A DNA stretch of 64,000 nucleotides. Origin: Radiobacillus kanasensis. GTDB lineage: Bacteria > Bacillota > Bacilli > Bacillales > Amphibacillaceae. Below the pieces are notes generated by a model. That model ran no database searches, was not told where the DNA came from, and saw nothing but the letters and a program-made list of their open reading frames with translations. The stretch lies in assembly GCF_021049245.1 (NCBI RefSeq), contig NZ_CP088020.1, positions 2,734,001 through 2,798,000 on the forward strand. The letters run 5' to 3'. This document shows positions 16,334 through 16,746 of this stretch, one piece after another; position 1 is the first letter of the stretch; the number at the start of each line of letters is the position of its first letter. A program made the translations under genes and the position numbers.

Positions 16334-16363
16334 TTGGAAATTCTCAAGTAGTTGCGGTAAAAT
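16334..16363 (+). promoter_or_regulatory. candidate promoter of the toxin mRNA
   Basis: TTGGAA (16334-16339), 18-bp spacer, TAAAAT (16358-16363). This gives a leader of about 80 nt before the toxin start. The -35 is weak (4/6). Confidence 0.45.
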
Positions 16364-16376
16364 AAAAGATAGGCAT

Positions 16377-16432
16377 GGTAGCGTTGTGAGGGTGGGGACC
16401 ACTCACTACCTCTGGACACCAATCTAATTGGT
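16377..16432 (+). promoter_or_regulatory. structured leader of the toxin mRNA
   Basis: GGTAG/CTACC and GTGAG/CTCAC form a 5' stem (16377-16410). ACCAAT (16418-16423) pairs with ATTGGT (16427-16432) directly before the GGAAGGAGGG ribosome site. Leader hairpins of this kind commonly limit translation of type I toxins. Confidence 0.4.
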
Positions 16433-16450
16433 GGAAGGAGGGATTAGAGC

Positions 16451-16558
16451 ATGAATACAGTCGCCGTGATATTTCTGGTTCTGTTTGCTGGCGGGACTTT
16501 TCTCGTTGCATTGCTTGAATACATTAGGAAACTCATCAATGATTCCAACAAAAAGTGA
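16451..16558 (+). CDS. holin-like small hydrophobic peptide, candidate type I toxin
   Basis: 35 aa (MNTVAVIFLVLFAGGTFLVA, then LLEYIRKLINDSNKK): one membrane segment of about 20 residues, then a basic C-terminal tail. This size and layout match the putative holin-like toxins found in Bacillales type I toxin-antitoxin loci. AAGGAGGG lies 8-9 nt before the ATG. The stop codon sits inside a strong hairpin, and a consensus promoter on the opposite strand about 160 bp downstream would make an antisense RNA overlapping the 3' end. A gene this short is easily missed by gene finders. Confidence 0.6.
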   Translation: MNTVAVIFLVLFAGGTFLVALLEYIRKLINDSNKK

Positions 16559-16602
16559 ACCCCCACCCGATGACTCGCAATCACTAGGGTGAGGGTTCTT
16601 TT
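16557..16602. terminator. bidirectional terminator at the toxin stop codon
   Basis: GAACCCCCACCC (16557-16568) pairs with GGGTGAGGGTTC (16587-16598). It is followed by TTTTTC on the plus strand, and by ACTTTTTG on the minus strand. Confidence 0.75.
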
Positions 16603-16666
16603 TCTTTAAACCTAATACAATTAGGTGTTCAGAGAGGTTTCCCTGCCTGAACTTCATTACCATGCT

Positions 16667-16701
16667 AACCGAGAATGTTGACCGCATTCTCGGTTATTTT
16701 T
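16667..16701 (+). terminator. second terminator downstream of the toxin
   Basis: AACCGAGAATG (16667-16677) pairs exactly with CATTCTCGGTT (16685-16695), then ATTTTT on the plus strand. On the minus strand it would be an internal hairpin of the antisense RNA. Confidence 0.65.
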
Positions 16702-16717
16702 AACTTAATCTAAATTT

Positions 16718-16746
16718 ATTATACCTTCTATTAATTAAATTGTCTA
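16718..16746 (-). promoter_or_regulatory. strong promoter of the antisense RNA
   Basis: Minus strand: TAGACA (16741-16746, 5/6 to consensus), exact 17-bp spacer, perfect TATAAT (16718-16723). No minus-strand gene follows, so an RNA product is expected. Confidence 0.6.

Follow-up and report, generated by a model that had tools for sequence, protein, structure and literature searches.

A 35-codon gene of Radiobacillus kanasensis is faced at its 3′ end by a promoter on the opposite strand that has no protein gene to serve, which raises the question of what this pair encodes and how the two transcripts would act on each other. The locus lies in a 64,000-nt stretch of contig NZ_CP088020.1 (positions 2,734,001 to 2,798,000; hereafter the window, whose numbering is used in Table 1). 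A sequence-only reading had listed the gene, its ribosome site, two terminators and the minus-strand promoter, and had proposed a type I toxin–antitoxin locus; all of these elements were recovered at the same positions, and the interpretation is supported. We assign a probability of roughly 0.87 to the locus being a chromosomal type I toxin–antitoxin module of the Hol_Tox/BsrG kind, for which we infer the transcript, the toxicity of the peptide and the switch described below.

Table 1. Features of the focal locus, with positions in the window and the evidence for each.
Feature	Position	Strand	Evidence and remarks
Toxin mRNA promoter (TTGGAA, 18 bp, TAAAAT)	16334..16363	+	sequence and promoter scan
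Toxin transcript start	about 16370	+	inferred
5′ strand of long-distance helix P1, GCATGGTA	16373..16380	+	pairs with 16658-16665; RNAalifold consensus
Conserved G-rich 5′ UTR element, GTGAGGGTGGGGACCACTCAC	16386..16406	+	16-locus alignment
Anti-SD strand	16409..16420	+	folding, duplex tests, pair counts
Ribosome binding site GGAGG	16437..16441	+	sequence
Toxin peptide gene, 35 aa, Hol_Tox PF16935	16451..16558	+	26.3 bits; pN<pS
Stem-loop T1	16557..16598		antisense RNA terminator, possible plus-direction terminator; stem covaries in RNAalifold
3′ UTR strand GGTGTTCAGAG, complementary to the anti-SD strand	16624..16634	+	-20.2 kcal/mol vs -7.9 in shuffles; compensatory changes
3′ strand of P1, TACCATGC	16658..16665	+	RNAalifold, pair counts
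Terminator T2 of the toxin mRNA	16666..16696	+	terminator scan; stem covaries, AU>GC in 7 sequences
Antitoxin, a predicted antisense RNA of about 165 nt	16711 down to about 16545	-	promoter and terminator, covariance model
Antisense promoter (TAGACA, 17 bp, TATAAT)	16746..16718	-	promoter scan; conserved 16/16

Read by eye, the peptide (MNTVAVIFLVLFAGGTFLVALLEYIRKLINDSNKK) has a hydrophobic segment of sufficient length to form a single membrane helix, followed by a charged C-terminus. It matches the Pfam family Hol_Tox above the cut-off of 23.3 bits, and scores exactly 23.3 in a six-frame search. Four sister peptides scored 14.7–19.1 bits, which places the subfamily on the edge of the Hol_Tox model. 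BsrG, the type I toxin of phage SPbeta, scores 31.8 bits against the same model. The sequence-only reading could match the peptide to no named toxin; it reaches the cut-off of Hol_Tox, to which BsrG also belongs. To PepG1 (NCBIfam NF041589) it has a weak local match of 19.3 bits, far under the cut-off of 70. A search of solved structures gave five matches at E 1.1–1.9, none of them meaningful. Type I systems of the bsrG/txpA kind combine a short peptide with a convergent downstream antisense promoter over the 3′ part of the mRNA, and both are found here. The peptide is under purifying selection: over a 28-codon core, pN is lower than pS in all 120 homologue pairs (median ratio 0.32; the pairs are not independent), with values of 0.23 and 0.85 between the focal gene and its paralogue in the same genome. 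Besides encoding the end of the peptide, the last lysine codons (16550-16558) template the U-tract of the antisense terminator, with the A-rich codons at 16550-16554 supplying the tract itself; this may explain why that end is rich in lysine.

Relatives were sought with a five-row peptide profile in 159 genomes of the same family, 46 of which gave matches at E ≤ 0.001. Eighteen single matches reached at least 37 bits (16 intact, two broken), and all 18 are accompanied by the antisense part. The remaining matches, at 32 bits or less, are taken for other Hol_Tox kinds; the exceptions, G140:C2:332045, 65425 and 65584, are fragments of broken copies. Unbroken peptide, ribosome site, T1, T2 and antisense promoter are all present in the 16 intact loci, which span five genera: two are in the R. 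kanasensis genome (the focal locus and a paralogue at C1:3463071 with a 57% identical peptide) and fourteen in four other genera (G094, G028, G119, G137, G139, G144, G145, two each in G136 and G140, and three in G141). A pattern scan with 11 matches and two true loci supplied the named relatives, Lentibacillus jeotgali (L044) and Terrihalobacillus insolitus (L048); these share exact stretches with the G094 and G028 loci (L052 and L056) and were counted once. Three further Hol_Tox loci above the cut-off lie in the R. kanasensis genome, where Hol_Tox matches above the cut-off were seen at G000:C1:3233664 and 3129439 (L033, L034).

Beyond the family, 397 genomes drawn from the order gave a single strong profile match (G044, L005). 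Its ORF is cut short by an early stop and has no antisense part by eye, which makes it the only case seen of the ORF without that part. No relative was matched by blastn among plasmids and phages; tblastn gave none in plasmids and one chance-level match (E 6) in phages, and none of 15 pattern matches in viral contigs had T1- or T2-like sequence. Rfam gave no match within the window at the gathering threshold, and a literature search at the level of titles and abstract openings found no description of this subfamily.

The sequence-only reading had made its case depend on a peptide that is conserved while the flanking DNA varies. This was borne out by the 57% identical paralogue and the loci of other genera, and homology to the paralogue ends at the two promoters. 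The only same-strand blastn match between focal locus and paralogue (E ≤ 1e-4) spans -34 to +384 from the mRNA start, limits that coincide within a few bases with the toxin -35 box and the antisense -35 box. The match to the G094 locus spans -17 to +398, and more distant loci give shorter matches inside those limits. In genus g21, flanks are common to several loci, which are therefore partly orthologous. In a comparison of the loci, the conserved 5′ end GCATGG is adjoined by a -10-like hexamer in relatives. The ribosome site reads GGAGG or GGGGG in 16/16 loci; the search pattern admits only these two forms, and the site can also be read from the 16-locus alignment.

Taken as single-sequence evidence, the TAGACA/17-bp/TATAAT promoter on which the earlier reading had leaned is weak, although it is the sole site with 11/12 consensus matches between 15000 and 18500. 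Promoter-like sites in that region number 14, against 14.2 ± 4.3 in shuffles, and significance from the one sequence was therefore rejected. What raises the promoter above chance is its conservation across homologous loci: it scores 11/12 with a 17-bp spacer in 16/16 intact loci (TAGACA in 12 and TGGACA in 4, with TATAAT), where each locus is represented by its highest-scoring site in the 110 nt that follow T2, hence by a search maximum. The terminator scan listed T2 and missed T1, which exceeds its limit on loop length. Across the 16 loci, the T1 hairpin is more stable as antisense RNA (-24.1 to -27.7 kcal/mol) than in the plus direction (-15.6 to -25.1 kcal/mol), and its two tails have a similar T content (means of 5.1/8 plus and 6.2/10 minus), so that the suggested termination in both directions is plausible.

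A covariance search in relatives, which had been proposed as a check, was carried out with a model built from the T1–T2 part of the 16 intact loci. Run on the 159 same-family genomes, it found 25 loci with at least 75 bits: the 16 used for model building and nine others. This limit was our choice, and matches from 62 bits down are a mix of remnants and probable chance matches. No match of at least 75 bits was found outside the family in a draw of 397 genomes from the order. The toxin gene is broken or lost in all nine additional loci. Its N-terminal part or more has been replaced in six (G099, G022, G008, G136:C2:44453, G139:C46:166051 and C1:2576282 of the R. kanasensis genome), and in G140 it is broken by frameshifts at two loci and by an insertion at one. 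Antisense promoters were scored in eight of the nine: five reach 10 or 11/12 with a 17-bp spacer and three reach 9/12, one of them with 18 bp, although these are best-of-window scores and the nines may be chance. A toxin–antitoxin pair would be expected to lose its toxin first, and the antisense-only loci are consistent with this.

Several of these copies deserve separate mention. The antisense part at G000:C1:2576282-2576416 (L174, L181; 97.6 bits) is the third in the R. kanasensis genome and has no toxin ORF. A single 336-kb contig, G140:C2, holds five copies, three of them with broken toxin genes. An antisense-like remnant of 62.3 bits and equal length occurs in five genomes (L145, L146, L147, L148 and L161; about 1501-1645) spread over four genera and two families, and is identical by eye in the four that are fully readable. 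In L147 it directly follows a CadD-like ORF and a P-type metal ATPase ORF, as named by reading the ORFs, and it seems to be a scar travelling with a metal-resistance cassette.

The distribution bears on whether the ORF could encode a small membrane protein without a toxic role that is merely tuned by the antisense RNA. The marginal Hol_Tox scores of the sister peptides would suit such a protein, yet BsrG belongs to the same Pfam family, nine loci keep the antisense part without an intact toxin, several copies occur per genome and the borders of the module fall at its promoters. We consider a non-toxic role very improbable, and retain the toxin–antitoxin interpretation.

How the antisense RNA would act depends on the structure of the toxin mRNA. 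The anti-SD strand has two predicted partners, namely the ribosome site, in a local hairpin that would mask it, and the 3′ UTR strand at 16624-16634. Unprompted, RNAalifold returned from the 16 full mRNAs P1 (the 5′ end with the stretch of 3′ UTR that immediately precedes T2), the anti-SD/3′ UTR helix, T1 and T2, together with a few pairs between the G-rich element and the 3′ UTR and two helices within the ORF; anti-SD/SD pairing was not chosen in this consensus. Compensatory changes occur in P1 (UA>CG in one sequence, GC>AU in three) and at two pairs of the anti-SD/3′ UTR helix (CG>UA in two and three sequences), and covariation contributes little to the consensus energy (-1.43 of -59.45 kcal/mol).

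Pairs were also counted in a gap-free block alignment of 15 distinct rows, whose motif-anchored blocks favour pairing. Pairing is found in 94.5% of 255 cells versus 92.8 ± 0.4% in shuffles (0/500 reach the observed value), six cells are changed on both sides versus 1.6 (0/500) and three pairs have two-sided changes versus 1.3 (17/500), an excess to be read with the caveat that kinship by itself can lift related sequences above shuffles without any structure. Further pair types show no excess in this alignment (12 versus 12.2; 432/500), and slid-register controls pair at 23.5–44.0%. On average, pairing becomes weaker once 3′ UTRs are exchanged between loci, both for P1 (p = 0.0009) and for the anti-SD/3′ UTR helix (p = 0.009), although single loci often bind some foreign 3′ UTR better than their own; for pairing between the whole 5′ and 3′ UTRs, 0/20000 permutations reach the cognate value. 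The anti-SD/3′ UTR duplex (-15.9 to -25.8 kcal/mol) beats 300 dinucleotide shuffles per locus in 16/16 loci (fraction 0.000–0.013), and P1 taken by itself is at or under 0.05 in 14/16.

The helix between the anti-SD strand and the ribosome site gave a different result. Covariation was rejected here: four of six pairs are invariant, 128/500 shuffles reach the observed pairing and the register slid by one pairs better (97.8 versus 90.0%); exchanging SD regions among loci made no difference (p = 0.54). This helix therefore rests on folding. In the predicted full-length mRNA of all 16 loci, P1 forms with a probability of 0.83–1.00 and the ribosome site is closed (unpaired 0.00–0.20). The anti-SD/3′ UTR helix has a probability of at least 0.40 in five loci and of 0.00–0.10 in eleven (0.02 at the focal locus); the mean penalty for enforcing it is 3.0 kcal/mol (-1.0 to 8.8; focal 2.0), and the ribosome site is then unpaired with a probability of 0.04–0.94, exceeding 0.5 in 4/16 (focal 0.08). 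The site is also predicted closed in 16/16 loci when the 3′ UTR is blocked as by the antisense RNA (unpaired 0.00–0.01), and likewise when the mRNA is cut at T1 (0.00–0.01). Since it is predicted closed in all states, folding by itself gives no account of toxin synthesis.

Two further pairings were noted. The G-rich 5′ UTR element could pair with a T1 arm (-15.8 to -21.2 kcal/mol), and a role of this predicted pairing as an antiterminator was considered. At L003 (G000:C1:1459749), which carries another Hol_Tox kind in the R. kanasensis genome, the 5′ UTR GGGTCGGCT is complementary by eye to the 3′ UTR AGCCGATCC; judging from these sequences, a 5′–3′ helix may be more general in Hol_Tox mRNAs.

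A mechanism is proposed in which the toxin mRNA (about 16370 to 16697) would encode the 35-aa membrane peptide, an excess of which, to judge from its family, would harm the membrane of its own cell. In the model, the ribosome site is masked by the upstream anti-SD strand and the 5′ end of the mRNA is zipped to its own 3′ UTR, a pairing that is conserved and covaries. The 165-nt antisense RNA from the convergent promoter would extend over the 3′ UTR as far as the stop codon, pair there and bring in RNase III, whose recruitment is known for RatA and SR4. It would also take away the 3′ UTR strand that might otherwise draw the anti-SD off the ribosome site, which is the weakest step; with that strand removed, translation would stay off. 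All of this requires that a substantial share of the mRNA extends beyond T1 as far as T2.

In its full form, this amounts to a three-strand RNA switch in which the anti-SD has mutually exclusive partners, the ribosome site (off) or an SD-like 3′ UTR strand (on or poised), and in which the antisense RNA, carrying a near-copy of the anti-SD, would remove the 3′ UTR strand and so, besides decay by RNase III, turn translation off. The conservation of the anti-SD/3′ UTR helix indicates that it matters; the energies neither prove nor exclude opening of the ribosome site. An open state is supported by folding in only 4/16 loci, and the focal locus is outside these four, so that we regard the complete switch as rather unlikely. 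The same helix could instead extend a lock, with no on-switch, under control like that of hok or aapA, where a 5′–3′ helix makes the full-length mRNA inert and 3′ trimming activates it. The predicted closure of the full-length mRNA in 16/16 loci would agree with this, as would a ribosome site that stays mostly paired in 12/16 loci (unpaired 0.04–0.40) when the anti-SD/3′ UTR helix is enforced, and locked mRNAs of this type (LDI) with activation by 3′ trimming are described for aapA (PMC6733600). Here, however, the partner of the 3′ UTR strand is the anti-SD and not, as in aapA, the SD, and trimming to T1 would not suffice to open the ribosome site, which the folds of the T1-truncated mRNA show closed in 16/16 loci as well. 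We hold an inert full-length mRNA to be a serious possibility, somewhat short of even odds.

Alternatively, the anti-SD copy of the antisense RNA might bind the ribosome site in trans, with the complementarity between 5′ and 3′ UTR as a by-product. Pairing between the antisense RNA and the SD region is predicted at -10.1 to -20.2 kcal/mol and beats the mRNA's own anti-SD in 6/16 loci, a comparison in which the longer antisense stretch offered favours the antisense RNA. In 5/16 loci the pairing is weak (-10.1 to -13.1 kcal/mol), whereas the anti-SD/3′ UTR duplex lies at -15.9 to -25.8 kcal/mol in every locus. Departures from Watson–Crick pairing also favour G-U inside the mRNA (20 G-U cells versus 6 A-C or C-A, some of which stem from misaligned rows), and binding in trans appears quite improbable. 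Were the three-strand switch to hold, it would provide a structural cause, conserved across genera, for a conformational change of the SR4 type; and if the alternative helix is real, it becomes directly testable how an antisense RNA restricted to the 3′ UTR shuts a ribosome site some 200 nt away, a point that we take to be open for bsrG/SR4.

The locus appears to add an undescribed multi-copy type I toxin–antitoxin subfamily of the Lentibacillus/Terrihalobacillus group, whose members have diverged enough for comparative RNA work, which is rarely possible with toxins so short. Its neighbours encode a ZnuA-type zinc-binding protein, an ArsP-type permease, a TauE/SafE permease and a DUF3231 protein, and the two ORFs adjoining the locus have no Pfam match. 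No phage genes were seen among six neighbouring ORFs.

Among known systems, aapA/IsoA of Helicobacter and hok/Sok resemble the locus in that a 5′–3′ long-distance interaction holds the toxin mRNA (PMC6733600). They differ in the far strand, which in aapA is an anti-SD; here the conserved 3′ strand resembles an SD, has the anti-SD as its partner and does not sequester the SD itself. The txpA/RatA and bsrE/SR5 systems of B. subtilis share a small toxin, long antisense complementarity and a masked ribosome site, and the ribosome sites of txpA, bsrE and bsrG are described as held in 4–5 GC pairs (PMC6562991). According to the same source, the structure around the bsrG ribosome site becomes tighter when SR4 binds, and RatA and SR5 cause no such conformational change; the alternative helix here predicts one, which sets the locus apart from these two systems. 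Three features are shared with bsrG/SR4 of the B. subtilis prophage SPbeta: a Hol_Tox peptide, an antisense RNA that binds the toxin mRNA in its 3′ part (for SR4 in PMC6562991, here predicted) and, in the modelled folds of both the SPBc2 bsrG mRNA and the focal mRNA, a 5′–3′ main helix with a ribosome site masked by an upstream strand. Unlike the focal locus, which has no visible prophage next to it, bsrG is prophage-borne, and its anti-SD segment pairs with its 3′ UTR at chance level (-7.3 versus -7.0 in shuffles, fraction 0.42), whereas this pairing is above chance in 16/16 loci here. The Rfam BsrG model (RF01412; gathering threshold 55) gives 10 bits (E 6.5) at the focal locus, and finds bsrG in SPBc2 at 210 bits as a control. 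The likeness to txpA/RatA that had been drawn from the architecture was right in kind, and the closest of the systems compared is bsrG/SR4.
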